A stretch of 36,661 bases of DNA from a bacterium (GTDB taxonomy: Bacteria; SZUA-79; Acidulodesulfobacterales; Acidulodesulfobacteraceae), in assembly GCA_021850985.1 (NCBI GenBank), contig JAJZJX010000018.1:1-36661 (forward strand), given 5' to 3'. Under the pieces are notes generated by a model that saw only the letters and a list, made by a program, of their open reading frames with translations, had not been told where the DNA came from and made no database searches. Made by a program: the position numbers and the translations under genes. Of the stretch, positions 1,389-32,784 are shown one piece after another (the stretch's first letter is position 1; each line of letters starts with the position of its first letter).

Positions 1389-1443
1389 ATTTTATCAAAA
1401 CAATGTTACAATTTTATGACGTTTATGTTAAATTTTTGTAACA
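1389..1443 (-). promoter_or_regulatory. Pho-type promoter of the phosphate symporter
   Basis: On the plus strand the hexamers GTTACA, ATGACG, GTTAAA and GTAACA begin at 1405, 1416, 1427 and 1438, exactly 11 bp apart. In minus-strand orientation an extended -10 (TGATAAAAT) ends at 1389, leaving 10 bp between it and the nearest hexamer. The 11-bp phasing of direct repeats that replace a -35 element is the layout of PhoB boxes. The same 55-bp layout recurs at five or more other sites in this window. Confidence 0.75.
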
Positions 1444-1569
1444 TTCCGCTTTAAAACCGTTAATGGAATTTTACGTTACGCATTAATAATTTAAAAATAG
1501 TTTTAATATTAGTATTGTTATAAAATTTATCTATTGTTTTGAATATTTAATTATTTGATAAATTTAAAT

Positions 1570-1665
1570 AAGCTTCCGGAACCACTTTTCTTTTAAAGTT
1601 AATTCCGGAAGTTTGTCGAGGGAGATTAGATATTAAACTAAGCTTACAGTATTATAAAAATATTA
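1570..1665 (-). ncRNA. Candidate Pho-driven small RNA, CU-loop family member 1
   Basis: This lies between the end of the phosphoesterase gene and the separate promoter of the phosphate symporter, so it belongs to neither coding unit. Read on the minus strand it has a C-rich segment (AUCUCCCUCGAC) enclosed by a weak AGUUU/AAACU stem (1610-1614 with 1635-1639). A strong hairpin follows (CTTCCGGAA arms at 1573-1581 and 1603-1611, with an inner ACTTT/AAAGT stem). The U-tract after the hairpin is weak. The 5' region (UAAGCUU) can also pair with the AAGCUUA right after the hairpin. It is preceded by a Pho-type promoter. Its first stem is the weakest of the five related elements. Confidence 0.45.
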
Positions 1666-1671
1666 ACATAA

Positions 1672-1726
1672 TAATTAACTTTAATGTGTTAAGATTGCGT
1701 TAAATTTACGTTACGATTTTGTAATA
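1672..1726 (-). promoter_or_regulatory. Pho-type promoter ahead of the orphan RNA element
   Basis: Hexamers GTTAAG, GTTAAA, GTTACG and GTAATA (plus-strand view) start at 1688, 1699, 1710 and 1721, all 11 bp apart. The standard -10 slot (1672-1677) reads TAATTA on the minus strand. A perfect TATAAT lies further downstream at 1651-1656. It points toward the RNA element at 1570-1665 and lies just past the stop codon of the phosphoesterase gene. Confidence 0.55.
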
Positions 1727-1737
1727 ATTTAAATTAT

Positions 1738-2919
1738 TTAAATAATAAACGCATCGTCGAAACCATCAGCATATCTGTCCCTATCGGTTAAAGGATCCAG
1801 CCCCCACAAGTTTTCTACATATTTAAGAACGGAAGCGTGTTCGTGCCTTACGTTTGAAACGTAGCCTTTTTTAACGAACGGCGAAATAATAATGCATCCG
1901 ACCCTCATTCCAAGACCGTAGTAATCAACTACAGGCGGAACGACATGATCGTAAAAACCTCCGCATTCGTCCCAGTTTAAAAAAATAGCAGATTTTGAAA
2001 ACAAAGGGCTTTTTCTTAAAGCTTCAATTCTTTTTACCGTATATAGCATACCTATTTTTACGTTTGCAGGAGGATGTTCGGAATGGGCAAAATCGGGGAC
2101 GAGCCAGCTGAACTGCGGCAGAGTTTCTTTTTTTACGTCTTCAAAATATTCTTCCGCGGGTCTTATTTTATTCCATAAATTTTTATCTCTTTTAAAACTG
2201 TCGAACCATATAACCGGCACCCAGTGGTGAACGTATTTATGGGGGTTAGGCCAGCCCTGCACGTATATTTTCCAAGAGACTTTAGCTTTTTCTAACCTGT
2301 TAAAAATTGTAGGAAACTCGTACGGTTTTCTTGGCGGAGCATCGGTTATGTGACCGTTCGACTGACCGGCAATCTGATAAAGCCTGTTCGGCTGGGTAGG
2401 CCCCATAATAGAATGAAAATAGTTCTGACATAGTGTATATTTAGTTGCATAGTAATAATAGGGCGCAAGTGCTTTTTTCGTGTCGTAATAACCCATAATT
2501 ACTTTGTAGTCGTTTACCGGCTGGTTGATGCCGTTTAAGAAATATCCGTCCATCTTGCCGTTATTATATATAGTATGGAGCGCTTTCCACGAATGATTGG
2601 GATCGACATGGTTCGGCGTTACGTAACTATAACCTAAATCGTAGGGCTTAACACTGCCTCCCATCCCGTCTGTTATTCCAAGTTCTCTTATTCTTTTAGG
2701 CTGTCCGTTAACGGTTTCGTCCATCATTCCGAAATAGTGGTCGAAACTCCTGTTTTCCTGCATTATTAAGACGACATGCTCAGGCTTCCTGTATTTGTTT
2801 AACGTGCCGTTTGAATCATTATCCTCGGCAGCGTCCGCTTTCTTAAGATTAATGCCGTTTATAAATAATCCCGACAAAAGGCTAAGTCCTGTCATTTTTA
2901 CAAAATCTCTTCTGTTCAT
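1738..2919 (-). CDS. Tat-exported phosphoesterase (phospholipase C / acid phosphatase AcpA-like family)
   Basis: Secreted hydrolase expected to release phosphate from phospholipids or other phosphomonoesters/diesters in the periplasm. The N terminus has a twin-arginine signal (RRDFVK at residues 3-8, hydrophobic stretch, cleavage near ADA at 30). Family landmarks are QENRSFDHYFG at 54-64, GPTQPNRLYQIAG at 173-185, NWDECGGFYDH at 315-325 and HEHASVLKYVE at 359-369. The 393-residue length fits the catalytic domain alone; the C-terminal extension of classical bacterial phospholipase C is missing. A canonical AAGGAGG lies just upstream of the ATG. No separate promoter is visible after the hairpin at 2998-3033, so it may depend on readthrough from the exbD side. 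Exact substrate cannot be told from sequence. Confidence 0.85.
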   Translation of the reverse strand: MNRRDFVKMTGLSLLSGLFINGINLKKADAAEDNDSNGTLNKYRKPEHVVLIMQENRSFDHYFGMMDETVNGQPKRIRELGITDGMGGSVKPYDLGYSYVTPNHVDPNHSWKALHTIYNNGKMDGYFLNGINQPVNDYKVIMGYYDTKKALAPYYYYATKYTLCQNYFHSIMGPTQPNRLYQIAGQSNGHITDAPPRKPYEFPTIFNRLEKAKVSWKIYVQGWPNPHKYVHHWVPVIWFDSFKRDKNLWNKIRPAEEYFEDVKKETLPQFSWLVPDFAHSEHPPANVKIGMLYTVKRIEALRKSPLFSKSAIFLNWDECGGFYDHVVPPVVDYYGLGMRVGCIIISPFVKKGYVSNVRHEHASVLKYVENLWGLDPLTDRDRYADGFDDAFII

Positions 2920-2993
2920 TTATTAACCTCCTTAAATTGTTATTTTTACATTTAGTTTGTTATATGGCATCTGGTATCTTTTTATATATTAAT

Positions 2994-3070
2994 AAAAGTT
3001 TGTGCGAAAAATTTTATCCTTTTTCGCACAAACATCCTTATATCCGATAGGGGGATTGGAGATAAAGAAA
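2994..3070 (-). ncRNA. CU-loop RNA element, family member 2 (leader of phosphoesterase or small RNA)
   Basis: Read on the minus strand, a 10-bp stem with one mismatch (arms at 3058-3067 and 3036-3045) closes a 12-base loop containing CCCCC. Two bases later a long hairpin follows (arms GTTTGTGCG with CGCACAAAC, 2998-3033), then TTTTATT, which resembles a Rho-independent terminator. It sits between exbD and the phosphoesterase start, about 75 bases before that gene. A weak set of phased hexamers (ATAACA 3081, ATTAAA 3093, GTTAAC 3103) overlaps the end of exbD and could be its promoter. It may end the exbD transcript, attenuate the phosphoesterase, or both. Confidence 0.5.
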
Positions 3071-3107
3071 TTTTATATAAATAACATTTTAAATTAAATA
3101 ACGTTAA

Positions 3108-3512
3108 CTACTTGACAGGATTTACAGCTATAGAAACCCTTAAAAAACCGTCCTTTTTTATAATGTCTATCGTTTTCACAACCTTTCTTAAATAAATTTT
3201 TTTATCCCCGTTTATAATAATTAAATCTTTTTTATTTGTTACTCTTTGTTTTAGTAATGCAGGAAGATTTTTTAAAGACGTTCTTTCTTTGTTAAGATAA
3301 ACGCCGCCGTTTTTCTTTAATGTAATAGTATAATTATGCAATTTAACCGCAGAACCCTGAGAAGACTTAGGAAGATTTACGTTAAGCCCTTTCTGATGAA
3401 CCATTGAAAGAGTCACGAATATAAAAAAAATTAAAAGAAAAAACATAGTATCTATCATAGGTATCAACTCTATTCTTGCTTTTTTAGTTTCCTGTTCTTT
3501 TATTAGCTTCAT
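3108..3512 (-). CDS. exbD: ExbD-type TonB energy-transduction subunit
   Basis: Inner-membrane proton-channel subunit that works with ExbB to energise TonB. The 134-residue protein has a short cytoplasmic N terminus, one membrane helix (about 18-40) and a periplasmic domain. The helix carries the essential Asp at position 21 in IPMIDTMFFLLIFF, matching the proton-binding Asp of ExbD/TolR. It is the last gene of the TPR-TonB-ExbB-ExbD operon; the gap from the ExbB stop is 23 bases, and GGGAGG lies in that gap. The assignment to ExbD rather than TolR rests on its neighbours TonB and the receptors. Confidence 0.9.
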   Translation of the reverse strand: MKLIKEQETKKARIELIPMIDTMFFLLIFFIFVTLSMVHQKGLNVNLPKSSQGSAVKLHNYTITLKKNGGVYLNKERTSLKNLPALLKQRVTNKKDLIIINGDKKIYLRKVVKTIDIIKKDGFLRVSIAVNPVK

Positions 3513-3535
3513 ATTTTTGCTTATCGCATTCCTCC

Positions 3536-4252
3536 CTAACTTAATGCGGATTCATTCGCCGCTATTTTAATATTTTTATTTTCAAACTGAATTCTTTTTT
3601 GATTTGAACCAAAACTGTTATTATCTTTTAAATCGTTTTTGCTTATAAAATTTTCAAATTGCAATACGACGTATTCCATCTGTTTTTTTATCGAAATAAT
3701 TTTGCTTTGAAAATAATTAAAAAATCCTAAGCAGAGTATAGCGATAACTAAACCTGCCGCCGTATTTAAGAGTGCTAAGGCAACCCCTCCGGTAATTGCC
3801 GTTGGGTGTGATACACCGGTTTTACTTATTACGTTAAATGAAATCATAATTCCAAGTATAGTTCCCAAAAGTCCCAAAAGAGGCGCCATCGTTATAAGCG
3901 TATCTAATACCCACATATATCTTTCCATTTCCTTTGTATGCCTCATAGCTTCTTCAGTTAAAACTTCGTCTCTTTCGTCTCTCGTTAAGCACAAATTATC
4001 AAACCCTGCTAATAGAAGCGACGAATAAATCCCCGGATGTTCTTTGCAATACTCTTTGGCTTTTTTAAGTCCATTATCAGACTTTAAAATACTTTTTATT
4101 TCTTCGCTGAAAGAAGAGCCTGTTTTAAGTACGCCGTGTAAAAAATAAAATCTTTCAACGATAACGGTAATTGCAATTAAAAGCAGCAGCAGCATTACAT
4201 ACATTAGCGGGCCGCCGTCGAAAAGTACCCCGATTGAATGAATTATATTCAT
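3536..4252 (-). CDS. exbB: ExbB-type TonB energy-transduction subunit
   Basis: Inner-membrane MotA/TolQ/ExbB-family proton channel protein of 238 residues. It has a first helix near residues 15-35, a cytoplasmic loop, and two C-terminal helices. The conserved segment LITMAPLLGLLGTILGIM (about 118-135) and the following TAITGGVALALLNTAAGLVIAI are family signatures. The ribosome site AAAGGAGG precedes the ATG. It sits between TonB (gap 62 bases) and ExbD (gap 23 bases). With those partners it would drive the two TonB-dependent receptors upstream. Confidence 0.92.
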   Translation of the reverse strand: MNIIHSIGVLFDGGPLMYVMLLLLLIAITVIVERFYFLHGVLKTGSSFSEEIKSILKSDNGLKKAKEYCKEHPGIYSSLLLAGFDNLCLTRDERDEVLTEEAMRHTKEMERYMWVLDTLITMAPLLGLLGTILGIMISFNVISKTGVSHPTAITGGVALALLNTAAGLVIAILCLGFFNYFQSKIISIKKQMEYVVLQFENFISKNDLKDNNSFGSNQKRIQFENKNIKIAANESALS

Positions 4253-4314
4253 TTTTAAAGCCTCCTTTTATCTTTATTATTTTAATTTTTTATATTAATT
4301 TTTATAATAAGAGT

Positions 4315-5016
4315 TTAGCGGTTTTTTAACTTAAAATGTATTTTTATTAAAAAAGTAAGCGAATTTCTTTTTATTCCATTTGGAAAAGCCGGAAAAGGCG
4401 CCGATATTTTTATGGTTTTAATGGCAGATCTGTTCAGTGTTCCGTATTGCGACGATTTTTCTATTCTTTCAAAAACTAAATCTCCGTTCCTTAATATCTT
4501 AAACAATACATCTACATATCCTTTCATCCCTTCTTTTCGCGCATATCTTGAATAAACTAAATTATTTACTATCTTCGATTTTATCTTTGCAAAATATTTA
4601 TCTAGGACACTTGCCGGTATTTTAGTCTCTACATGGTAAACTTGCGGCTGCTGTATAATCGGATGAACAACCGCCATAGGCGAGGTTACCGGAATTTTAT
4701 TTACATTTATAGGCTTTACCTTCCTAACTATTCTTTGAATTTTTCTAATTACAGGTTTTTTATACACTACTTTTTTTATTTTTTTTACGGGTACAACCTT
4801 TTTTTTGTGATGAACTACCGCTTTCTTTTTTTTAGGCACGCTTATTACAGAAATAAGCATAGGTTTGACGCGCTTTACAGGTTTCATATAGTTTTTAACC
4901 ATAATTGAAATTTCCGCAATTAACAGTAAGAAAATTACTTCAAGAATGATTGCTATAAAAAAAGAATATTTTAATCTTGTATTTTTATCTGGAAATTCTT
5001 TAACAATATTTTCCAT
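4315..5016 (-). CDS. tonB: TonB energy-transducing protein
   Basis: Protein spanning the periplasm that passes proton-motive energy from ExbBD to outer-membrane receptors. It has a cytoplasmic N terminus, one membrane helix (about residues 17-40), a Lys/Val/Pro-rich spacer (about 45-125, with Lys-rich runs in place of the usual Glu-Pro/Lys-Pro repeats), and a C-terminal TonB domain. That domain (about 145-233) shows GYVDVLFKILRNGDLV and the SAIKTIKISAPFPAFP segment. No clear Shine-Dalgarno precedes the ATG, so translation may be coupled to the TPR gene 30 bases upstream. The spacer is unusually basic. Confidence 0.88.
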   Translation of the reverse strand: MENIVKEFPDKNTRLKYSFFIAIILEVIFLLLIAEISIMVKNYMKPVKRVKPMLISVISVPKKKKAVVHHKKKVVPVKKIKKVVYKKPVIRKIQRIVRKVKPINVNKIPVTSPMAVVHPIIQQPQVYHVETKIPASVLDKYFAKIKSKIVNNLVYSRYARKEGMKGYVDVLFKILRNGDLVFERIEKSSQYGTLNRSAIKTIKISAPFPAFPNGIKRNSLTFLIKIHFKLKNR

Positions 5017-5046
5017 AATTTTTATTTTTAGATATCTTTAAAATAA

Positions 5047-5835
5047 TTATTTAAAAAGGTTTCCTGTGTTTTTTTTAATATTTCTAATTTCTTGATTTTT
5101 TTTGTAAATAATTGCTTTTTTATCTACATTAATAGCTTCTTTTATCATTTTATTTTCTGGATTTAATTTTTTGGCAGTCTCAAGGTCTTTTAAAGAACTG
5201 TACAATTCTTTTAATCCATATTCAGCTCTACCTTTTAAAAAAAATGCGTAATAATTTTTTGGATTCTTTTTTATTATTTTATTTGCATAATATATTGCTC
5301 TTTTTAAATGTGCGGGAGTGCTGTTTTCATAACTCAAAACAAGATTTAAAGTCAAAAAATCAACTAATTTTTTATTAGACGCATAACTTAGCCCCTTTTT
5401 GTATTGCTTTATTGCATAGTTAATTTTTCTTGCTTTTAAAAGATTATTGCCGGTTAATAAATAATTAAGTGCGACGCCGTTTTTTAAGGACAATAAAAAT
5501 TTATTTGGATTCTTAAAGCTTTTTGATTTTAATACAGAAATAATAGACTTTTTATAATAAACCGTGCTAAGGTTATATTGCTTTTTAAGCTGAAATATAT
5601 TTGCCTCGAGCTCGTAAGTATATGGATTTTTATTTTCTTTCAAAGCTTCTTCAGAATATTCTAACGCCAAATTATATTTCTTATTTTTTAATAAATTAAC
5701 AGCTTTATCATAATTTTTTTCCCATTTTATTGTCTGTGACGATGCATTAGCTCCTGATGCAGAAAACAAAACAATATATGCAAATGTTATTAAACATAGA
5801 AAACTATAAAAATATAATCGAAAATGTTTCTTCAT
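5047..5835 (-). CDS. Secreted TPR-repeat protein, first gene of the tonB operon
   Basis: 262-residue protein with an N-terminal signal peptide (hydrophobic about 8-26, ending near SGANA) followed by tetratricopeptide-like helical repeats. Visible units start near the segments AVNLLKNKKYNLALEYSEEA, YELEANIFQLKKQYNLSTVY, AIKQYKKGLSYA, YYAFFLKGRAEYGLKELYSS and LKDLETAKKLNPENK. TPR proteins occur in many TonB-ExbBD operons and probably assemble or modulate the complex in the periplasm. It is the promoter-proximal gene of the four-gene operon. No catalytic motif is seen. Confidence 0.8.
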   Translation of the reverse strand: MKKHFRLYFYSFLCLITFAYIVLFSASGANASSQTIKWEKNYDKAVNLLKNKKYNLALEYSEEALKENKNPYTYELEANIFQLKKQYNLSTVYYKKSIISVLKSKSFKNPNKFLLSLKNGVALNYLLTGNNLLKARKINYAIKQYKKGLSYASNKKLVDFLTLNLVLSYENSTPAHLKRAIYYANKIIKKNPKNYYAFFLKGRAEYGLKELYSSLKDLETAKKLNPENKMIKEAINVDKKAIIYKKNQEIRNIKKNTGNLFK

Positions 5836-5884
5836 AAATTTTATTCTCCGTGTAGTATTAAATTTAATTATTTTTATTTTTTTA

Positions 5885-5957
5885 AATTCTCCAGAAAATA
5901 AAATCTATTTTCTGGAGATATGATTACTTACCTTGAGAGGAGGAAGTAAACAATTAT
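5885..5957 (-). ncRNA. CU-loop RNA element, family member 3, start of the tonB operon transcript
   Basis: Read on the minus strand from a start near 5955, a stem (TTACTT/AAGTAA arms at 5944-5949 and 5924-5929, extended by CC/GG) presents a loop with UCCUCUC. The wider segment UUCCUCCUCU contains a perfect anti-Shine-Dalgarno CCUCC. A second hairpin follows (CTCCAGAAAAT arms, 5889-5917). The U-tract after it is weak (AATTT then A-run), so transcription may well continue into the TPR gene, whose ATG is about 55 bases on. The 10-base segment is exactly complementary to the ribosome site of the phosphate symporter (plus 1337-1346). Confidence 0.55.
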
Positions 5958-5961
5958 TATT

Positions 5962-6036
5962 ATTATACAAAATGAATATTACAGGAATATTACATTTATA
6001 TTAAATTATGTTAAAATTTGTTACATAACTATTACA
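5962..6036 (-). promoter_or_regulatory. Pho-type promoter of the TPR-TonB-ExbBD operon
   Basis: Six hexamers (plus-strand view ATTACA 5978, ATTACA 5989, ATTAAA 6000, GTTAAA 6010, GTTACA 6020, ATTACA 6031) run at 10-11 bp spacing on one helix face. A perfect TATAAT (minus strand, 5962-5967) lies exactly 10 bp from the nearest hexamer. This is the longest repeat array in the intergenic regions examined. It places the TonB energising system under the same control as the phosphate symporter. Confidence 0.75.
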
Positions 6037-6070
6037 TAAATGTTTTTTGTTTAAATTTATTTTCCAAGAC

Positions 6071-8971
6071 CTATAAATGCTCTATGGGAGCTTTTTTATT
6101 TGCAGCCAAGGTAATAATATATGCAACTACTTTACGATAAGACTTTACCCCTTTTACTGCTATCCATTCCTGTTTAAACTGCTGATAACCGTTAACTTTT
6201 AAAAGACTGGTTGGAGTATATTGGTCTTTGCGGCTAACTTTAAGAACCGGACTAGAACTATTTGTGTTATTTGCGCCTAAATTTATAGCAGTATATTTCT
6301 TAGGAAGATTAGCGCCTAATTTTAGTCTCAGTTTTTGAATTTGAGTACAAAAACCCGGGTTTAGTCTCTTTTTTACCTTCAGTTTTAAATATTTATAAGG
6401 TTTGCTATTAACTGGTTTGTTAGTAAAACCGTTAATTATAACCTTAGCATTGGCATCCCATTGGCTCATAGGAGGAATATTAAATATAGCTTCTATAGTT
6501 TTAACTATCGAAACCTGTGAGTATCTCTGCTTTACTAATGCGCCTTTTTTAACATATGGTCCCATCATAAGCGCAAATGTTCTGTGCGCCGAAATATGGT
6601 CGGCTCCAGACTGCGCATCGTCTTCAGTTAAAAAAACTAATGAATTTTTCCATATTTTAGAATGTGATAAAAATGATAATATCATTCCTGTAGCTTCATC
6701 ATTATTGGCGACATAATATTGAGGCGTATAATAGCATGGCTTTAATCCGGCAGTATGGTCGTCAGGCAGCCAAATATATGTAAAATCAGGAAATTTATTT
6801 TCTTTCAGCTTTTTTTTGCCCAGTTTATAAAAATTTTTGCTCTTGTAGTTTCTAATATATCTCTGTTCCATCCTGGATATTCCGCAACTACGTGCGCCTC
6901 CATATTCCTGTTTACACCGTTAATACGAGTATGCGCTACAAATTCGCCAAAATCCGCAAAACTGACATGATGAGCTAACATATCGTTGAACAGATAAAGT
7001 TTATAAGGATATGAAATCCAAATGTTTGTTAAATGAACATTTAATTTTTTCATAAGCTTATTTCCAATATAAGCCGGATTTAAAAAAGTATCATCTTTGT
7101 TAGGTTTTGCAGGTATTAATAATGTTCTGCCCTGAGGATACATAAGTCCCCTGCCTGAATAGTTCTCAGGCCATACTCTTTGTACATAGTCGGAATCGGA
7201 TGCTCCTGTCGTCCATTCGTGACCTTGCGCAGTTACCTCTCCATCTGCGTAAAAATTAACAAATAGTGCGTAATTGTTTTGCAAGCTTATATAAATTAGG
7301 CAGTTCCTTTTGATTATACAAATCAAGATGCGGATCTGCCCATTTACCGGCTCGCTTATAATCGCCGAAATCTTCATCAAATGTTTTATTTTCACGAAGT
7401 ATAAATATTATATGTTTTATATGTTTTCTTAAAAATTTAACCATAGATGCTTCTTTTTTCTTTCTTTTGCTTCTCTGTTTAAATGTAAACCCGTCGTCCT
7501 GCAAGCAAATATGCGTAAGATAATCTTCATTTTTTAAAAAATAATTTATTTTAACTTTCTTCAGCGCACCGTGCATAAATGAACCTATCCATTGATATTT
7601 TAAGTTAGGTCCTGCGCCTAAACCTTTAGCATTTGTAATAAAAATGCTGTTATTAGTTGAAGTTAAAGACGTTGGATACCATGCCGTTGGAATTAGCCCT
7701 ATTGGTTTATAATTGGATAAATTAAATACCTCTATGTCATTGTTGCCTGCATTAGCTACAAAAAAATATTTGCCGCTAATAGTTATTCCATCGGGATAAC
7801 TACCATAAGGAGCGTGTTTATAAGGACTCACATGTATAATCTTTAGTATTTTAAGATTTTTTGTATCTACAACAAATATTCTGTCGTTGTTCGAAGCGGC
7901 AACTAAAGATATATAACTGCCTGCAATCGAGGCAATAGCAGTAGGATGCATTCCCGATGACGGATTTGGATTATTGTCAAACGATACTTTGCCGAGATAT
8001 TTAAGATTAGCATTAAATATTTTTACTTCATCACCTCCCCAATCGCTTACAATTAGCCTTTTTCCTTTATCTGCAAGATTTACGGCAAAAGGGTAAGGAC
8101 CTGCATTTGCGTATTTTATTGCTCCAGTTTTTAGGTTTATTTCGGCAACTGAATTAGAAAGAAGACCTGTTGCATAAATATATCTTTGGTTTTTAGATAA
8201 CGCTACATAATCAGGATAAAAAAGATAAGGCTTGATATTTTCATGCCCCTGATATTCGTAAGGATACTGGCTTTTTGGAAATTTCTGCCATTTAAGCCGG
8301 TCGCTTCTTACTGCTTTAAGCCTGCCGTTTATATATTTAATTGCTAAAATATTTCCGGAAACCCCTCCCGCAACATAAATAGTCCCGTTTTTACTTATGG
8401 TAAGACCCTGAAAAAAACTTTGATTTCTAATAATAGTAGTCGGTATCGTAGAGTTAGGAACGCGTGCTATACTGTCTGCATATATTAATGAAGTAGCGTA
8501 ACCTTTATTTTTTTCAATATTTGACTTTTCTGCATACTGTACTATCGGCCCTAAATATGGCAAATCATATTCTCCTTCAAATGCTTCAAGCTCTGCCAGC
8601 GGTTTTAAACTTTTTCTGCTGTATATCTCTATTTTTTGTACTTTTTTTGAAGGATTAGTTAAAACGATTACATAATTTTTTTAAACTTTAACGTTCGTCG
8701 GAAAATTTTCCGTAGCACTTAACAATCCGACTGGGCTTATCAAGCGTCCGGTCGGAAGTTTATGGGTATATTTATTAATATTTTCCTTAGTAATCTTAAC
8801 AGGAATATTTTTTAAAAATTTGTAAGGCAAGTCATGAGTTGAAATTAGCCTATCAGCCGAAGAACTCATAGGGCAACAAAGCAAAATAACAGCGGAAACG
8901 AAAATACCCATAACTGTAGTTATGATAAAAAGCTTAGATTGCTTAATATTTCGCTTTAAATCTAGTTTCAT
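6071..8971 (-). pseudogene. Broken beta-propeller / alkaline-phosphatase-superfamily phosphoesterase
   Basis: About 966 codons that once encoded a secreted two-domain protein. A signal peptide (about 1-39) is followed by a YVTN/YncE-like beta-propeller (codons about 95-500) and a phosphoesterase domain (about 510-800). That domain keeps FILRENKTFDEDFGDY, TAQGHEWTTGASDSDYV, WLPDDHTAG and EDDAQSGADHISAHRT. Three lesions break it. An in-frame TAA lies at 8681-8683 with the reading frame continuing directly after it. One extra base lies near 7268-7276, and one base is missing in a run of eight A at 6810-6817 (minus strand). Homology-like sequence continues across each break, which points to recent loss or, for the homopolymer, an assembly error. 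The upstream RNA element and Pho-type promoter imply it was phosphate-regulated. As read, no full-length protein can be made. Confidence 0.85.
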
Positions 8972-9008
8972 AAATATGCTCCTAATTTTAATTTGTTAAT
9001 TTTTTATT

Positions 9009-9120
9009 TAAAAAAAATATGTGCGGAAAATCTTTTAAAACTTTCCACACATATATGCTTTAACTTCGATAGAGAGAGGAGAAAGATAAAGCCAAAGATT
9101 TAATTATTTTGCAATATTCG
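9009..9120 (-). ncRNA. CU-loop RNA element, family member 4, between Pho promoter and broken phosphoesterase
   Basis: This is the clearest member. On the minus strand a stem GCUUUA/UAAAGC (9087-9092 with 9057-9062), a one-base symmetric internal loop, and a CUUU/GAAG inner stem present a 14-base loop CUCCUCUCUCUAUC. Two bases further an ATATGTG...CACATAT hairpin (9017-9054) is followed by eight T, a textbook intrinsic terminator. The receptor gene upstream has its own terminator (9188-9226) and a Pho-type promoter lies between, so this is a separate transcript of about 110 nt. Readthrough would reach the broken phosphoesterase start at 8971. Confidence 0.6.
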
Positions 9121-9174
9121 CTTTTATTTTATGTATATTACTAAATTATTACAGTTATATTAATTTTTATTACA
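9121..9174 (-). promoter_or_regulatory. Pho-type promoter for RNA element 4 / phosphoesterase
   Basis: Plus-strand hexamers ATTACT 9137, ATTACA 9148, ATTAAT 9159 and ATTACA 9169 are spaced 11, 11 and 10 bp. Possible -10 elements on the minus strand are TAAAAG (9121-9126, standard 10-bp gap), TAAAAT (9126-9131) or TATACA (9132-9137). The -10 is less certain than at the other sites. Confidence 0.55.
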
Positions 9175-9187
9175 TTTAAAAAAGTTT

Positions 9188-9226
9188 CCGCAAAAGCCGT
9201 TATATGCTATATCAGCGGCTTCTGCG
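9188..9226 (-). terminator. Intrinsic terminator of the 811-residue receptor gene
   Basis: Arms CCGCA-AAGCCG and CGGCTT-TGCGG form a long stem with a single mismatch. On the minus strand it is followed by AAACTTTTTT. It begins about 55 bases after the receptor stop codon. Confidence 0.75.
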
Positions 9227-9282
9227 GATAAATATTAAACCGTTTAACCCATTAAAAACATCAAATAATTTAGATCTTAAGT

Positions 9283-11718
9283 TTAAAATTTAATTGATGT
9301 CGTTACATAATAAAATCTGGGCATGCCGGGCATATATTCGGCATAAACCGCGTTTGAATTTGGGTATGTACTGACAAATCCAGCGATCGCGCCGCTAAGA
9401 TACTTTCTGTTTAAAATATTGTCAATAGACAGGCTGAGTTTCATACCTTTAAGTCCAGCTTTTTTTAATATGCCCATTTTTTTAAAGTTGAAATAGCGAC
9501 TAAGATTTAAATTAAACAGCCAGTAGCCGCCAAGGTGAAACGCGCTTGTAGGATTTCCGTTTATGTCTTCTACGAACTGCTCACCAGTGTATGTCCCCCA
9601 CATCCTTGCGTCTATATTGTAATAGTTTTCATCCACGCCGATATTTGCAAGATGCCTAGGTATAAAAGGAACATTTTCACCAGATATAACGTTTCCTGCC
9701 GGACCTGAATAGGTAGAAGTAAATTTTCCGGTATTTAACGAATAGTTTGCAAAAATATTCAGATGACGATTAAAATCATATTGTCCTTCTAACTGCAAAC
9801 CCTCATATTGAGACCTGCCGCCATTCGTTTCGTAGGTAATTTCCGTTGTGGTGTTTAAATAAGTACCAAATGTATTAGAAAAGTCTTCTTTATATACATT
9901 TGCCGAAAGTTCAAGATTGTCTAATCTGTACCTCGTTCCAAGCTCGTAATCGGTTACGTATTCAGGCTTTATTCCGCTTAGTGATGTAGTAAAGTTAGTT
10001 CCGTTATAAGAAGTCAGCACGGATTCGTAAGCAGTATAATTTGGAGCCTTCATCGTTCTTCCATAAGTTGCGTAAAAATTCCAGTTTGGAAGAAAATTAT
10101 AACTCAAGCCTATTGTAGGTTCTATTTCGGTAAATGTGTCTGACACCGTTCCGCCGTAAGGATAATTGCTCGGCCATGTTTCATTTGTCGCAACGGTCAT
10201 GTCCACTACTTGATATTTAACGCCCGGCTCGATAAATAATCTATCGGGGATGATGTCAAGTTTGTCCTGGGCATAAATCGCATCCATACTCTCTGTGCCA
10301 TGTTCATTATCGTTAATATTGTAAAATGGTGTGACAGGCCCATAGCTTTCCCCGTAATACGACTCTATTTTGTGATATCGTCCGAAAAGGAATTGTCCGC
10401 CTAGCGTAAACACATTTCTCGGAAATCTTACAGTAATCGATGGAATATCGCCAAACTGGTTTACATTAACTGCTTTATAATGATTATCCGTCCCGTAGGC
10501 AAATCCTGGCGTAAATCCGTTTGCAATCGCCGTAGCGCTATTTTGACCGTCAAGAAACTGCGGGTCTGGATTATAAGTAGCAGTGGGAACAGGCGTTAAC
10601 GACCAGTTTCCGCTGCCGAAACCCAAAGAATAAGGCTGTACGCCGTTAATATATATGCTTGAAGGTATATCGCATGATGCCGTGCTAATTCCTGCGCTCG
10701 CGGCGCTTGTATGGCATGCTGGGTTTATATAAAGATTTTTTGCCATATTTTCATTAAAATAAAAACTCTTATTGTTAAAAGTAAGATCTCTGTTCATATA
10801 ATCCTTCCATCCCAATATTACATAATATTCCTGATTGTAAGCCTGCGCATTTTCGACGGAAGTAGGCCATCCCCAATTGTATCCGAACTGATTAAGAAGC
10901 GGAACGGGAACGAGATGCGGGTCGTTTGCGTAATCGTCGTTTCTCATAAATATGAACGAAATATGAGATCTGTTGTTATTATACGGCTTAATTAGAGACA
11001 TATAGTATGAATGCAGTCTGTTTGGATAAGCCGAACCGTCATACCAGTTGTTTGCATCGTCTCTTGATACTTTCAAATACATTCTGATTCCTTCCCAGAG
11101 CTTGCCGGTATTCAAAGCAAAACCGTAAGTTCTTGTAGCAAAAGAACCGTAGCCTCCGAATATTTTGGCGTAAAATTTGCTCGTAGGCATCAATGGTTCA
11201 TAGTTTATAGTGCCTCCAAGAGAGTCAAAGGAATCAATGCTTGGATTATTCACGCCGTAATAAATCCCGACCCCGGAAATATCGCCTAGCGTAAACGGAA
11301 CATTGTTCCTGACATCCATATAATTCGAGGAATCACCGTCAAACATATTGTTAATAGGTACGCCATCGAAAGTCTGCGCAACCTCACCTGTACCAAAGCC
11401 TCTTAACTCGACACGCGCACGAATATTATTTGGACCGCTGGTACTTGCGTGAATAGAAGGCGACTGATTTAATATCGTCTCAAAGGAGTTCATAGGCGAT
11501 TTCGTTGCTTCGATAGCCTTCTTTTTAATCTTCGATACGGTAAACGGCGTTCTTTTTACTTTCTTGCCTTTTTTCACAGTTTTTAATACAATTACTTTGG
11601 CATTTGCTTTGTACGGGTCATAAAATGCGGCAAATACCGACAGGACAATAAACAGAATTAATTTAATTTCACCCCGTTTAACCCTATCTTTACTTAACTT
11701 ACCGTCATGAATCTTCAT
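9283..11718 (-). CDS. TonB-dependent outer-membrane receptor (811 aa)
   Basis: Outer-membrane 22-stranded barrel with N-terminal plug, importing a substrate using the TonB complex. A signal peptide (hydrophobic about 20-33, cleavage after KANA near 40) precedes a short linker. The plug domain (about 60-180) shows ETILNQSPSIHAST, RVELRGFGTGEVAQTFDGVPI and the SLGGTINYEP end. The rest alternates aromatic-rich strands and ends in the typical terminal Phe (VTTSIKF). GGAG lies 9 bases before the ATG. The promoter is Pho-type and almost identical to that of the second receptor. The substrate is inferred to be phosphate-related (organophosphate or phosphate-metal complex) only from regulation and neighbours. 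Confidence 0.9.
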   Translation of the reverse strand: MKIHDGKLSKDRVKRGEIKLILFIVLSVFAAFYDPYKANAKVIVLKTVKKGKKVKRTPFTVSKIKKKAIEATKSPMNSFETILNQSPSIHASTSGPNNIRARVELRGFGTGEVAQTFDGVPINNMFDGDSSNYMDVRNNVPFTLGDISGVGIYYGVNNPSIDSFDSLGGTINYEPLMPTSKFYAKIFGGYGSFATRTYGFALNTGKLWEGIRMYLKVSRDDANNWYDGSAYPNRLHSYYMSLIKPYNNNRSHISFIFMRNDDYANDPHLVPVPLLNQFGYNWGWPTSVENAQAYNQEYYVILGWKDYMNRDLTFNNKSFYFNENMAKNLYINPACHTSAASAGISTASCDIPSSIYINGVQPYSLGFGSGNWSLTPVPTATYNPDPQFLDGQNSATAIANGFTPGFAYGTDNHYKAVNVNQFGDIPSITVRFPRNVFTLGGQFLFGRYHKIESYYGESYGPVTPFYNINDNEHGTESMDAIYAQDKLDIIPDRLFIEPGVKYQVVDMTVATNETWPSNYPYGGTVSDTFTEIEPTIGLSYNFLPNWNFYATYGRTMKAPNYTAYESVLTSYNGTNFTTSLSGIKPEYVTDYELGTRYRLDNLELSANVYKEDFSNTFGTYLNTTTEITYETNGGRSQYEGLQLEGQYDFNRHLNIFANYSLNTGKFTSTYSGPAGNVISGENVPFIPRHLANIGVDENYYNIDARMWGTYTGEQFVEDINGNPTSAFHLGGYWLFNLNLSRYFNFKKMGILKKAGLKGMKLSLSIDNILNRKYLSGAIAGFVSTYPNSNAVYAEYMPGMPRFYYVTTSIKF

Positions 11719-11771
11719 TTCGTTTCTCCTTTTTTTGTTAAATTTTTCCTATTTTTTTTAATATACTTAGT

Positions 11772-11846
11772 ATTCTATCAAACGAATGTTACAACTTTAT
11801 GAAATTTACGTGAAATAATGTTAAATTTTGTTGCAGAAATGTTAGA
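11772..11846 (-). promoter_or_regulatory. Pho-type promoter of the 811-residue receptor
   Basis: Six plus-strand hexamers (GTTACA 11788, ATGAAA 11799, GTGAAA 11810, GTTAAA 11820, GTTGCA 11830, GTTAGA 11841) are spaced 10-11 bp. The -10 element TAGAAT (11772-11777, minus strand, preceded by TG as an extended -10) sits 10 bp from the first. The region differs by one base over about 68 bp from the promoter at 14363-14437. Confidence 0.75.
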
Positions 11847-11865
11847 GAAATGTTTTACATAAATT

Positions 11866-11936
11866 TAAAAAAAATATGCTGAAAGTCTATATACGACTTC
11901 CAGCATATTTTGCTTTAAGAGAGAGGAATAAAGCCG
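11866..11936 (-). ncRNA. CU-loop RNA element, family member 5, 3' of the second receptor gene
   Basis: On the minus strand a GCUUUA/UAAAGC stem (11929-11934 with 11912-11917), identical in arms to element 4, presents the loop UUCCUCUCUCU. Three bases later an ATATGCTGAAAGTC hairpin (11874-11908) is followed by eight T. It lies about 55 bases after the stop of the receptor gene and before the next gene's own promoter, so it ends that receptor transcript. No convincing Pho box lies directly upstream. If it is a regulatory RNA it would come from the 3' UTR, by processing or from an unseen promoter. Confidence 0.55.
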
Positions 11937-11991
11937 AAGACTTAATCGTTTATTATTTTTTAAAGTTAAGTATTCTCTACAGCGCAAACTA

Positions 11992-14295
11992 TTAAAACTT
12001 AAAATTAGCGGTTAAATAAAAAGTTCTAGGCGCTCCAGGATCAGCCAATACTGTGCCGGCGCTTTCTCCTGTGCTTCCGCCGAAATATGCACCGCTTGTT
12101 ATATATTCAAAATCATTGTACTGATGGTTAAACAGATTTAAAACGGATAAATCTATGCCTAAAGTTTTAATATCCTGCTTTTTAAAAGCATGGGTCGTAA
12201 ATTTAATCCCAGCATTCGCTATGTTATAACTTGGCATAGTTTGACTTGTCGGAGCGCCTGTCAAATTATTAAACATATATTCTTTGCCATTATAAATATC
12301 CCACAACTTAGGAGTTAATGAAAAATCATAATTTCTAAATGGTATCTTATATGAAAGACCTAAGTTGAACGTCAAATCAGGAACATTTGATACTGGAAGA
12401 TTATCAAAATTTTCTTGATTCACACCCGAAACATAACTTGTATAGTTTGTATGTAAGATTTCAAGATTTGAATAAAGATGAAGATTTTTAACCGGATTAT
12501 CTAATAATGAAATATCTACACCGTTATAATTTGCTGATGCGTAAGCAAAATAAGTCGTATATACTGTGTTTACCAGTATTGTTAAAGGGATAGCCTCATG
12601 TCCTAAATGGTAAGTAAAATAATTTGCGTTAAATACAAAATGATGTAAAAAATTGATATTGGATTTATTCAACAAAATTTTAAATCCTGCTTCATAATCA
12701 GTATCACGAATTCCCGAAATGCTTCCTGGATTTGCTTCGGCAACAGGGCTTGATAGTCCAACCGGATTTTGAATTGTTTGGGAATAATTTCCATATAACC
12801 TTAGATGAGACAAAAGTTTATAGCTTACCCCTAAGGACGGTTCGGTTCCAAAAATCTGTCTTGAAAAACTGTATGCGTTTGATCCAGCAGTCGGGTCATT
12901 ATAACTCGTAAATATATTGTGATAACCGACCCAGTCTAAGCCGGGTATAACAGTTATTTTGCCAAGATGAATTCCATCCTGAATAAAGGTCGAAAATCCA
13001 GTTTCGGAATATCTATTATATTGTGTGCCGAACCATATAGGATTCCATGTTGCATATATATAATAGCCCCCAAATTTTATATCGTTATTCGGCAAATTTA
13101 ATTTAAAAGTTAGTCTGTTTCCATAGTTATTGGAATAAGGGCTCCAGTCTTCTGAGGACGGCGCTCCGGAAATATAATTATTTATCCTGTAATGCAAGCG
13201 GTATCCATGTCTGAACCACGGCATATCAGAAAATGTCAAGTTTGGAGATAACTGCAAATTCAGTTTAGAATATGCCAATAAAACTTGCGTCTTAACTAAT
13301 TTGAACCACATATTTTCAGGCAATGAAGAATAATAGCCGGATGTTTGCTCGCTGTATAAGGGGGCACCACTAGCATTTAACCCCTGTGTAGTAACTCCTT
13401 GAACGGGGGAAACAGGAATGAAATTTGGACGGTAAGCCGAACTTCTTGCGACATATGCACCGAAGCTTAAAGAACCATTATTTAATGTTTTTATTGCCTT
13501 AGCAAAGAAAGCATATGAATGGGAAGGAGCATTAAAACTACCTGTCCTGAAAGTATTTTCCCTGACATATCCGCCTGAAAAAATAAAATCCCAACCATTC
13601 GTCAAACCAGAACTTAAAGTAAAATTGGTATAATAAGTATTATAACTGCCGGTTCCAATATTTATTTCTGCAGAAGGTTTTACCGTCGGCTGAACAGGTA
13701 CAAAGTTTAAAGTGCCGCCTATACTACCATACCACCGATTATAAGGATTTCCAGGACCGTAAATTACATTTATGCCCTGAACCATTGAAAGTATAGGAAT
13801 CATGTTAGGCTGCCACGCATTTCTAACATAATCTGTCATAGGAACTCCATCAAATAAAACCATTACTTCATGGCGGGCAATAGAACCGCTGGCAGAACCC
13901 CAGCCTTGAGAAAGCCCTCTTACATAAACTTGACTCCTGTCCGATGGATTATTGCCGCCATACGATCTTACAGAAACTCCGGGAGCCATTTGCAAAGCTT
14001 GGGCTGCATTGCCGATACCGGCATTTTCAATCTCATTCTTATCAATAACAACCTCCGATTGGGTTGATTTGAATATTTCCTTATTCGAGATAACCTTAAT
14101 CTCTTTTTTTTCATACGAAAGAAGTCTTTTAACGCTTGAAGAAGTTACAACTCCTAAGCTTATTACACTGTTTTTTGAACCCGCCGCGTACGAATAATCG
14201 ACTAACGTAAAAAATGTAAAAATAAACTGCATACATACAACTAATGCGCCGATAGTATAAAAACTTCGTTTCCCCTTTTGCATATTACTTAACAT
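11992..14295 (-). CDS. TonB-dependent outer-membrane receptor (767 aa)
   Basis: Second outer-membrane receptor. I set the start at the ATG 14293-14295 because TAGGAGGA ends 4 bases before it; an ATG 27 bases upstream would place this ribosome site inside the coding region. A signal peptide (about 15-38, ending SYAAG) is followed by a plug domain with VVIDKNEIENAGIGNAAQAL, MAPGVSVRSYGG, SQVYVRGLSQGW, VMVLFDGVPMTD and GSIGGTLNFVP. The barrel ends LTANFKF with terminal Phe. The plug resembles receptors for siderophore-like or other small ligands, but the Pho-type promoter points to phosphate-related uptake. The sequence differs clearly from the neighbouring receptor, so these are not recent duplicates despite nearly identical promoters. 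Confidence 0.9.
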   Translation of the reverse strand: MLSNMQKGKRSFYTIGALVVCMQFIFTFFTLVDYSYAAGSKNSVISLGVVTSSSVKRLLSYEKKEIKVISNKEIFKSTQSEVVIDKNEIENAGIGNAAQALQMAPGVSVRSYGGNNPSDRSQVYVRGLSQGWGSASGSIARHEVMVLFDGVPMTDYVRNAWQPNMIPILSMVQGINVIYGPGNPYNRWYGSIGGTLNFVPVQPTVKPSAEINIGTGSYNTYYTNFTLSSGLTNGWDFIFSGGYVRENTFRTGSFNAPSHSYAFFAKAIKTLNNGSLSFGAYVARSSAYRPNFIPVSPVQGVTTQGLNASGAPLYSEQTSGYYSSLPENMWFKLVKTQVLLAYSKLNLQLSPNLTFSDMPWFRHGYRLHYRINNYISGAPSSEDWSPYSNNYGNRLTFKLNLPNNDIKFGGYYIYATWNPIWFGTQYNRYSETGFSTFIQDGIHLGKITVIPGLDWVGYHNIFTSYNDPTAGSNAYSFSRQIFGTEPSLGVSYKLLSHLRLYGNYSQTIQNPVGLSSPVAEANPGSISGIRDTDYEAGFKILLNKSNINFLHHFVFNANYFTYHLGHEAIPLTILVNTVYTTYFAYASANYNGVDISLLDNPVKNLHLYSNLEILHTNYTSYVSGVNQENFDNLPVSNVPDLTFNLGLSYKIPFRNYDFSLTPKLWDIYNGKEYMFNNLTGAPTSQTMPSYNIANAGIKFTTHAFKKQDIKTLGIDLSVLNLFNHQYNDFEYITSGAYFGGSTGESAGTVLADPGAPRTFYLTANFKF

Positions 14296-14362
14296 AAATC
14301 CTCCTATAAAGTTTAATTTCATTTTAATTATTATTGATTATTGCAAAATTTTTGTTTTTATT

Positions 14363-14437
14363 ATTTTATCAAACGAATGTTACAACCTTATGAAATTTAC
14401 GTGAAATAATGTTAAATTTTGTTGCAGAAATGTTATG
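14363..14437 (-). promoter_or_regulatory. Pho-type promoter of the 767-residue receptor
   Basis: Hexamers GTTACA 14379, ATGAAA 14390, GTGAAA 14401, GTTAAA 14411, GTTGCA 14421 and GTTATG 14432 (plus-strand view) are spaced 10-11 bp. TAAAAT (14363-14368, extended by TG) stands as the -10, 10 bp away. It gives a leader of about 60 nt. Confidence 0.75.
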
Positions 14438-25284: not shown

Positions 25285-25339
25285 ATTATATATTTTAATT
25301 GTTACGGTTTTATTACATTTATGTTAAATTTTTGTAACA
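25285..25339 (-). promoter_or_regulatory. Pho-type promoter of the polyphosphate operon
   Basis: Hexamers GTTACG 25301, ATTACA 25312, GTTAAA 25323 and GTAACA 25334 (plus-strand view) lie exactly 11 bp apart. A perfect TATAAT (minus strand, 25285-25290) is 10 bp from the first. It ties polyphosphate synthesis and turnover to the same control as phosphate uptake. Confidence 0.75.
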
Positions 25340-28264: not shown

Positions 28265-28813
28265 ATGAAAAAGTCTAAGTTTCTTTTTCTGTTTATTTTT
28301 CTGTTAGCATTTATTTTTACAGGAACGTATTTTGCGGGCAAAGCTTCAGCATTTCAGGGTATGCAGAAACATAACTTTATGGGGCACAAATTTATGCGAC
28401 GCGGTAAAATGAATATGTGGATGAAAATTGGAATGTTTAATGTTCTTATGCTTAAAAAGAAATTGCATTTAAATAAAAAACAGGTTCATCAAATTATGCT
28501 GTTTAAACGTCAGGAATTTAAAGCTTTCAAATCTAATATGGAAAACTTTCGGAATCCGCTGCTTTCGGCAATGAAATCCGGCATGTTTAACAAAAGCGTT
28601 TTCGTAGCGAATATTACAAATAAAATTAAAAACATGGCTGAAATAAAAGCAAACTTTTTTCAAAAATTCTTTAACGTTCTAACGCCGAAACAAAGAAACA
28701 AATTTGTGCAAATGATGAAGAAAAGAATTGCCAATAAAATTAAACGTCTTGAATTTATGAAAAAAATGCTGAATAAAAAAATTAATGCTATGAAAGAAAA
28801 TCTGTCCGAATAA
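28265..28813 (+). CDS. Spy/CpxP-like periplasmic protein, copy 1
   Basis: 182 residues. A signal peptide (hydrophobic 7-22, ending GKASAF near 30) precedes a Met-, Lys- and Phe-rich helical body. KLHLNKKQVHQI and VLTPKQRNKFVQMMKKR are the two LTxxQ-type motifs of the Spy/CpxP family. These are small periplasmic chaperone or stress-sensor proteins. It is unusually basic and Met-rich (MGHKFMRRGKMNMW), which might bind metal such as copper (inference). The nearly identical copy 2 lies at 32236. A two-component system follows, echoing the CpxP-CpxRA arrangement. Confidence 0.72.
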   Translation: MKKSKFLFLFIFLLAFIFTGTYFAGKASAFQGMQKHNFMGHKFMRRGKMNMWMKIGMFNVLMLKKKLHLNKKQVHQIMLFKRQEFKAFKSNMENFRNPLLSAMKSGMFNKSVFVANITNKIKNMAEIKANFFQKFFNVLTPKQRNKFVQMMKKRIANKIKRLEFMKKMLNKKINAMKENLSE

Positions 28814-32235: not shown

Positions 32236-32784
32236 ATGAAAAAGTCTAAGTTTTTTTTCCTGTTTATGTTTTTGTTAGCATTTATTTTTACGGGAACGTA
32301 TTTTGCGGGCAATGCTTCCGCATTTCAGGGTATGCAAAAACATAACTTTATGGGGCATAAATTTATGCGCCGCGGTAAAATGAATATGAGCATGGGAATG
32401 AGAATGTTCAATGTTTTTGCTCTTAAAAAGAAATTGCATTTGAGTAACAATCAGGTTCATCAAATTATGCTGTTTAAACGTCAGGAATTTAAAGCTTTCA
32501 GGTCTAATATGGGGAACTTTAGAAATCCGCTGCTTTCGGCAATGAAATCGGGAACGTTTAATAAAAGCGTTTTCGTATCGAATATCACGGATAAAGTTAA
32601 AAACATAGCAGAAATTAAAGCAAACTTTTTTCAAAAATTCTTTAAAGTTTTAACGCCGAAACAAAGAAAAGAATTTGTACAAATTATGAAGAAAAGAATC
32701 GGTAATAAAATTAAACGCCTTGAGTTTATGAAAAAAATGTTGAACAAAAAAATTAAAGCAATGAAAGAAAACCTGTCCGAATAA
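32236..32784 (+). CDS. Spy/CpxP-like periplasmic protein, copy 2
   Basis: 182 residues, the same length as copy 1 and very similar throughout. Differences gather in the Met-rich segment (MNMSMGMRMFNVFALKKK here) and a few C-terminal positions. Signal peptide, LSNNQ and LTPKQRKEF motifs are conserved. Equal length and many silent and conservative changes suggest both copies are functional and the duplication is not very recent. The two copies flank the regulator/kinase genes and the AbiE-like remnant in direct orientation. Confidence 0.72.
   Translation: MKKSKFFFLFMFLLAFIFTGTYFAGNASAFQGMQKHNFMGHKFMRRGKMNMSMGMRMFNVFALKKKLHLSNNQVHQIMLFKRQEFKAFRSNMGNFRNPLLSAMKSGTFNKSVFVSNITDKVKNIAEIKANFFQKFFKVLTPKQRKEFVQIMKKRIGNKIKRLEFMKKMLNKKIKAMKENLSE

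Follow-up and report, generated by a model that had tools for sequence, protein, structure and literature searches.

The window analysed here is a 36,661-nucleotide stretch, a single contig (G000:C17) of an AT-rich bacterial genome of 1.9 Mb. Its minus strand carries a phosphate island with genes for an MFS transporter, a phosphoesterase, TonB, ExbB, ExbD, and a TPR protein, and a TonB-receptor pair accompanies them, as does a second phosphoesterase-type gene that is split into several frames. Phased Pho boxes, spaced ~11 nt apart, were predicted with a matrix made by hand; across the window, 11 places scored higher than its cut, and all 11 were on the minus strand; the place at 6406 falls within a coding frame, and those at 14378 and 14420 form one promoter region. 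One Pho box precedes a group of genes that looked by eye like CHAD, Ppx, and Ppk. Five RNA elements (E1–E5) lie on the minus strand of the island, each with a C/U-rich tract and, after it, a longer hairpin (Table 1), and were classified by their loops.

Table 1. Coordinates in the window of the five elements, with classes assigned by loop, and of predicted Pho boxes, with matrix scores.
Feature	Position	Strand	Details
E1 (class D)	1570..1650	-	tract UCUAAUCUCCCUCGAC; weak hairpin 1; hairpin 2 at 1570-1613; without long U-run
E2 (class C)	2994..3070	-	hairpin 1 within 3034-3070, CCCCC in loop; hairpin 2 at 2998-3033
E3 (class B)	5888..5954	-	hairpin 1 within 5921-5954, tract UUCCUCCUCUC; hairpin 2 at 5888-5918; without U-run
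E4 (class A)	9009..9092	-	hairpin 1 at 9057-9092; hairpin 2 at 9017-9054, then T8
E5 (class A)	11867..11934	-	hairpin 1 at 11912-11934, tract UUCCUCUCUCU; hairpin 2 at 11871-11911; T8
Pho-type phased promoter box of E1	1687..1714	-	score 20.6
Second Pho box, between E1 and MFS transporter gene	1404..1431	-	score 21.0
Pho box of E3	6009..6035	-	score 20.2
Pho box of E4	9136..9163	-	score 17.5
Pho box of TonB-receptor gene 11992-14322, with E5 behind the gene	14378..14405	-	score 18.4
Pho box between E5 and next TonB-receptor gene (9283-11718)	11787..11814	-	score 18.4

A preliminary description of this DNA had assigned the same two-part design, a stem-loop exposing a C/U-rich loop and then a second hairpin, to all five places. 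The tract and the longer hairpin were indeed present at each, and folding z-scores against dinucleotide shuffles were -2.8 (E1), -5.9 (E2), -5.6 (E3), -4.9 (E4), and -6.5 (E5), but a C/U-loop hairpin joined to a strong second hairpin was found in only four of the five (E2–E5), as the first hairpin of E1 is not stable. Most of the E1 tract is left unpaired in its best fold, and part of the E3 tract sits in a stem. The eight T that had been noted after two elements belong to E4 and E5 (four of those of E5 are paired in the predicted stem), and the same two elements do share GCUUUA/UAAAGC arms. E2 ends in four T, and the ends of E1 and E3 are AU-rich; because the long U-run is confined to E4 and E5, the label "terminator" fails for the set as a whole. 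The second hairpins had been called unrelated, which is not true of all of them, as E2 and E4 have a TGTG(C/T)G(A/G)AAA core in common. A scan for strong hairpins (-15 kcal/mol or lower) preceded by a C/U tract gave four combinations on both strands of the window, corresponding to E2 through E5, and none in each of 20 shuffled windows. E1 was absent from the hairpin scan of island stretches, even at a looser energy cut.

Three convincing Pho promoters and one weak promoter had also been proposed. The three were recovered ahead of E1, E3, and E4 (Table 1), where the last Pho unit begins 45–63 nt upstream of the element (measured in E1 from the presumed 5′ end), but the fourth was not, as the matrix gave no Pho promoter directly upstream of E2 (score 3.9) or E5 (score 1.8). 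For comparison, a score of 17 is attained by 4.2% of 452 pieces of 130 nt, most of them non-coding. As judged from these predicted sites, phased Pho boxes would serve E1, E3, and E4 directly, and any link of E2 and E5 to a box would be through their operon or 3′ position. E3 has a leader position ahead of the TPR, TonB, ExbB, and ExbD genes, E2 is downstream of the E3 promoter, in the gap that separates exbD from the phosphoesterase gene, and E5 lies 56 nt past the stop codon of a TonB-receptor gene. An architecture kept across all five elements, as had been claimed, is contradicted by these arrangements, with a predicted promoter of their own for E1, E3, and E4, 3′ or intercistronic positions for E2 and E5, and terminator-like ends in some elements. 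A further Pho box follows both E1 and E5 before the next gene, so these two elements can be units of their own, and the box between E1 and the MFS transporter gene would allow E1 to be a unit apart from the MFS mRNA.

Placement also bears on the possibility that the elements are cis-acting leader or intercistronic attenuators, in which hairpin 2 would end or weaken transcription into the downstream gene and hairpin 1 would sense a protein, a ribosome, or a metabolite. E2, E3, and E4 are 44–75 nt from the next same-strand frame with no Pho box found between, the end of E4 with its T8 is terminator-like, and several elements of relatives lie 25–98 nt ahead of TPR, phosphoesterase, or unassigned genes, all of which an attenuator would explain. 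By contrast, a further Pho box precedes the next frame at E1, E5, the E1 orthologue of genome G005, and elements G014a1 and G023a, the second hairpins of class B have no U-run, and class A retains its loop although the sequence of hairpin 2 drifts, which is a better fit to pairing by the loop than to a switch within the leader. We regard attenuation as unlikely. Inspection by eye for an antiterminator between the C/U loop and hairpin 2 gave a few short matches, and this candidate was dropped; by eye, the loops also showed no consistent match to the ribosome site of their own downstream gene. A putative leader peptide in E2 (AUG after AAGG) was rejected, as its frame is lost by eye in G002.

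Related elements were found in the Pho islands of relatives, all of one family, which is probably Ca. Acidulodesulfobacterales, and 23 elements were compared. Relatives were examined by a hairpin scan of Pho-island stretches and by a covariance-model search of 41 genomes, in which model R1, covering the first hairpin and built from 7 class A sequences, was used with tightened filters and a score was computed for 150 candidates in each genome. For class A, this search gave 11 matches at E ≤ 0.04 in 8 of the 25 family genomes (two each in G000, G004, and G014, and one each in G008, G019, G022, G023, and G024); the many R1 rows at E 0.08 to 5 were left out of this count. Seven of the 11 matches had been used to build R1, and the others are those of G023 and G024 and identical copies in G014 and G004 (contig end). 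The G023 and G024 elements have a second hairpin that is absent from the R1 model and thus provide independent confirmation. Outside the family there was one R1 match of equal strength (G040, E 0.024), at which the hairpin scan shows no class A-type element.

The other classes have relatives as well. E1 has an orthologue in G005 and G001 (L117/L118), orthologues of E2 in G014 and G002 show paired changes in hairpin 2, and E3 has a paralogue on contig C42 of its own genome (L119) and relatives in G014, G002, and G004. Members were chosen by eye from the hairpin scan, which also gave weaker combinations, and three strong combinations (L121:3787, L125:16919, and L126:4508) were left out. Also not counted among the 23 are G004a (L115:15384), which has an unstable first hairpin, is unassigned, and follows a gene for an NHL-repeat protein; the L118 copy of the G005 element; G004:C24 (contig end); the G008 element before a phosphoesterase gene (L006); the weak G004:C46:40234; and the E2 remnant of G001/G005. 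A contig search with a phosphoesterase alignment returned mostly distant relatives and, among the matches listed, one family contig, DAHVNW010000074.1.

Covariation was computed for class A. A nine-element alignment, from which the structure itself was predicted and in which four rows have a misplaced 5′ arm, had 95% of its cells paired and two-sided changes in 10 of 18 pairs, a number reached by none of 500 shuffles; nine of these ten pairs are in hairpin 2 and one is in hairpin 1. With the arms correctly placed in a five-row class A alignment, 4 of 19 pairs showed two-sided changes, and 3 of 500 shuffles reached 4. The loop sequence CC(U/C)CUCUCUUAA was invariant in these five rows except at the one position. 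A lack of conservation and covariation in relatives had been named as one of the grounds for giving up the family; computation found both, together with Pho boxes. These results also argue against the elements being ordinary terminators or mRNA-end hairpins of the Pho operon cluster, with C/U loops that arose by chance or as duplicated baggage. Such hairpins would be expected after gene ends, where several elements lie, and the two G014 copies are identical over the element, but shuffled windows gave no such combinations and the stem covariation and loop conservation extend over three genera, making this explanation very improbable.

A Pho box scoring at least 16.7 was present within 130 nt upstream of 12 of the 23 elements and missing there for 11. 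In relatives, the gene upstream of class A elements encoded a TonB receptor in seven of the seven cases scanned (G014, G004:C46, G004:C24, G019, G022, G023, and G024), a count that leaves out G008, where the upstream gene is 1.5 kb off, behind a Pho box. TonB receptors are also upstream of E4, E5, and the G021 element. The elements thus accompany the Pho island, and the RNA that carries one is probably Pho-driven in either of two ways, from its own promoter or as the 3′ part of a message. The earlier idea of sibling phosphate-starvation RNAs keeps its predicted Pho control, its covariation, and its conservation, but loses the single architecture.

Candidate targets were sought among start regions complementary to the loops. 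The sequence AGAGAGG before ATG was not enriched in the genome (14 matches compared with 16 for the reversed pattern), and thus the motif alone means nothing and any claim rests on extended pairing. Two of the 14 matches start proteins that by eye have the look of outer-membrane barrels, and these two have much longer complementarity; because both targets were picked out of those 14, the shuffle counts given below overstate significance. The first protein, of 477 residues, contains AIPAFAQKY, three residues, CAVCH, three residues, and PNL. In the available part of one study, the Cyc2 consensus is given as AXPXFAR[Q/K][T/Y] upstream of CXXCH, with PXL after it and a length of at least 365 residues (PMC8406198); the protein has Q in place of R and a CXXCH spacing not exactly as printed, and the rest matches by eye. 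Searches of Pfam, NCBIfam, and PDB sequences gave no match. Of the 41 genomes, 23 carry the gene, and every one of these is among the 25 of the family. Cyt572 is described as a Cyc2 homologue (PMC8406198, available part), and a cyt572-like gene as one of the 20 highest transcripts of Ca. Acidulodesulfobacterales (PMC6776010, available part). We treat the protein, for which the 16-strand porin barrel of Cyc2 is putative, as a candidate Cyc2-like cytochrome-porin.

Several comparisons support pairing of class A with the start of this gene. First, E5 is complementary to the Cyc2-like start, AACUUUAAGAGAGAGGAAAGUUAUG, over 16 unbroken nucleotides, and E4 is complementary over 10 nt and over a second ten-nt block from its 3′ arm, with one G-U. 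Second, when compared with 265 background starts from ~300 kb of the same genome, called by a rough gene finder, the Cyc2-like start ranked 1 of 266 for both E4 and E5. The pairing energies, which leave out folding within each RNA, were -28.0 kcal/mol for E5 and -32.8 kcal/mol for E4, compared with -22.1 and -25.4 for the best background starts. Third, none of 1000 dinucleotide shuffles of E4, and none of 1000 of E5, reached the energy of the real pairing. Finally, against background starts from sampled stretches of each of the other genomes (G021 and G024 being left out of the ranking), the Cyc2-like start ranked 1 of 81 in G014, with the porin-like start 0.1 kcal/mol behind, 1 of 96 in G008, 2 of 103 in G019, 1 of 104 in G022, 1 of 24 for both G023 elements, and 4 of 28 in G004. 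Shuffles with energies at or below that of the Cyc2-like pairing were rare for G014 (1 per 1000), G019 (0), G022 (1), and G023.b (0); matches were modest for G021.b (10), G008 (16), and G023.a (22) and weak for G004.d (63) and G024 (68), in both of which the site has changed. The Cyc2-like start can itself form a small hairpin.

The second candidate target is a gene that we labelled porin-like by eye, as its protein had no family match. E3 pairs with the porin-like start over 13 nt (rank 2 of 266) and the C42 paralogue of E3 pairs over 14 nt (rank 1 of 266), with 0 of 1000 shuffles reaching the pairing energy in each case. For class B elements of relatives, 4 (G014) and 2 (G002) shuffles per 1000 did so, and the G014 pairing beats 80 of 80 background starts. 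A Pho box scoring at least 17 was found for the porin-like gene in 13 of the 17 loci with a start found, among 20 examined. Cross pairs were intermediate (36 shuffles per 1000 for E3 and 45 for C42 with the Cyc2-like start; 50 for E4 and 40 for E5 with the porin-like start), and the specificity of the loop classes for their targets is relative. The porin-like gene was not found in G004, a genome that is 87% complete; the class B loop there has instead a 10-nt match to the Cyc2-like start, with a count of 22 per 1000 shuffles, but it matches the Cyc2-like sites of most other genomes as well. Overall, by computation, complementarity to the targets exceeded that of shuffles and of background starts in the majority of the genomes compared.

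E1 and E2, which served as an internal control, paired with neither target better than their own shuffles did. For targets of their own, the start pattern GGAGATWA had 27 matches compared with 4 for the control, and ranking of frames of at least 60 residues gave no convincing gene; full complements of the E1 and E2 loops (10 versus 8 and 5 versus 9 in controls) gave no convincing gene either, and the sole perfect match in these searches was the element itself. The best candidate target for E2 (-24.1) was rejected, as E2 reached -24.6 with the best of its 265 background starts.

Cognate loop-target pairs were no better than cross-species pairs (permutation p 0.28 for length and 0.11 for energy, with 11 elements from 9 host genomes and 22 of 27 target starts, five divergent paralogues having been dropped). 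A matching change in G014, with loop CCUCUCUUCU and site AGAAGAGAGG, gave an energy no better than that with the G000 site. The ribosome site of the Cyc2-like gene is also kept in genomes without a detected class A element, several of which are incomplete, so that something else, perhaps the small hairpin formed by the site itself, must account for its conservation. The parity of cross-species and cognate pairs, the pyrimidine-rich tracts of five of five elements, and the lack of a target found for E1 and E2 would all be accounted for by a generic anti-Shine-Dalgarno or pyrimidine-binding-protein element that acts in mRNA stability or protein docking and has no specific mRNA partner. Such an element is harder to reconcile with class A, which keeps CC(U/C)CUCUCU rather than a generic CCUCC, whose arms lengthen the match to 16 nt (E5) or two ten-nt blocks (E4), and whose match is not equalled by shuffles of the same dinucleotide content; we consider a generic role distinctly improbable. 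With two classes that have specific predicted targets, the loops do not look generic.

On balance we lean, with modest confidence, toward RNAs that are induced by Pho and block translation, with C/U loops that pair at the ribosome site of specific mRNAs for envelope proteins. The C/U-loop hairpins would be the pairing domains of RNAs from Pho-driven transcription units, made during phosphate starvation, with E4 and perhaps E1 as short RNAs transcribed from their own Pho promoter, E3 derived from a leader, and E5 and E2 released from 3′-UTR or intercistronic RNA. Acting in trans, the loop and a flanking arm would pair with the Shine-Dalgarno region, with class A (E4, E5, and relatives) directed to the AACUUUAAGAGAGAGGAAAGUUAUG start of the Cyc2-like cytochrome-porin and class B (E3 and relatives) to the start of the Pho-driven porin-like gene, and translation of these envelope proteins would be blocked. 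Under phosphate shortage, the cell would then carry out less Fe(II) oxidation and have a remodelled envelope.

A bolder and tentative extension, which we are more inclined to doubt than to accept, is a phosphate-to-iron switch in the acidophilic Ca. Acidulodesulfobacterales, in which Pho-induced sibling hairpin RNAs, partly released from the 3′ ends of TonB-receptor messages, silence the Cyc2-like iron-oxidising porin while the sister class tunes the porin-like protein. If it exists, this switch would slow the forming of ferric minerals that trap phosphate. Ferric minerals bind phosphate in acid mine drainage, and an RNA link from Pho to the Cyc2-like gene would therefore join two element cycles. 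Among the matches listed from the open-access literature, in the parts available, there was no report of post-transcriptional phosphate control of Fe(II)-oxidation genes. The predicted pairing is precise to the base pair, and the organisms are uncultured. If pairing occurs as proposed, RNAs with loop-exposed anti-Shine-Dalgarno sequences would extend to a little-studied lineage, and their loops would be target-specific rather than generic.

The predicted outcome, repression of outer-membrane proteins, is shared, as compared from general knowledge, with MicA, MicC, and OmrA/B, enterobacterial sRNAs that repress porins by pairing at the ribosome site; these respond to other control signals, and their seed is usually outside a hairpin loop. 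Staphylococcal RsaE also has C-rich loops that pair with Shine-Dalgarno regions but differs in lineage and regulation, and Rfam gave no match to it here. RNAI/RNAII and CopA/CopT are loop-loop antisense pairs, and class A hairpin 1 is like them in being a near reverse complement of the target start; unlike them, the elements are trans-encoded at unlinked loci, and kissing is putative. In the window, Rfam gave no matches at the gathering score. At E values up to 5, positions 1500–12000 gave three matches far below gathering scores that we took as chance, mir-3479 and a viral pseudoknot on hairpin 2 of E2 and PreQ1 on the plus strand. The alpha-r14 sRNAs are called "cuckoo" RNAs in the preliminary description. 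In alphaproteobacteria, alpha-r14 / NfeR1 sRNAs are described as having three hairpins with CCUCCUCCC in each loop (PMC10746234, available part), and a sponge RNA and four sibling sRNAs are described in Caulobacter (PMC12559287, available part). As far as the available parts of these papers go, the elements are like alpha-r14 / NfeR1 in having loops that expose an anti-Shine-Dalgarno motif, stems that vary, several copies, nutrient-stress control, and a block of translation at the start region, the last two being predicted here (PMC10746234, PMC3927594). They differ in having one C/U hairpin per element, with CC(U/C)CUCUCU or UUCCUCCUC in place of CCUCCUCCC, and in their Pho-type promoters, longer target-specific complementarity, and unrelated lineage. 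Thus, the elements would work like sRNAs with anti-Shine-Dalgarno loops but, because the three CCUCCUCCC hairpins that define alpha-r14 are absent and there is no Rfam match at thresholds, they are not alpha-r14 members.

Part of the phosphate (Pho) island is present a second time in the genome that contains the window, on a separate 4.7-kb contig (G000:C42, L119). This partial copy has its own Pho box, a C/U-loop element of class B (the class of E3), and a TPR-type gene that is 78% identical to its counterpart in the window. Within the window, the strong minus-strand Pho box listed below is followed downstream by genes that appear by eye to encode a CHAD protein, two Ppx/GppA proteins, and Ppk, an arrangement which suggests that polyphosphate turnover could be under Pho control. 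The two 182-residue proteins encoded in the window are 86% identical to each other, and an apparent response-regulator and kinase pair was seen by eye near them.

Features of the window
Feature	Position	Strand	Remark
Strong Pho box	25300-25327	minus	matrix scan, score 21.7
182-aa protein	28265-28813	plus
182-aa protein	32236-32784	plus
Phosphoesterase-type gene, several frames	6071-8971	minus	behind E4
Its frames	8681-8971, 7256-8563, 6805-7395, 6071-6871	minus

The phosphoesterase-type gene behind element E4 is split among several frames in the window, whereas in genome G004 (L115) the phosphoesterase domain lies within one unbroken frame of 968 residues. The split version may be a decaying gene or an assembly error. 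In G004, contig C24 (L133) carries an element with the same sequence as the one in G014, but the contig terminates in AGATCGGA partway through hairpin 2. This terminal sequence resembles a sequencing adapter, and the contig may come from another species.

Upstream of the phosphoesterase gene in G001 and G005 (L004/L005), the first hairpin of E2 seemed by eye to be retained in altered form, and no second hairpin was seen after it at these loci; the two hairpin modules may thus be separable. Upstream of the phosphoesterase gene in G008 (C157, L006), inspection by eye revealed Pho-like repeats, a GCCUCC/ACCCC tract and a hairpin, with a further set of such repeats after them. This tandem arrangement matches that of E1, where a second Pho box follows the element.
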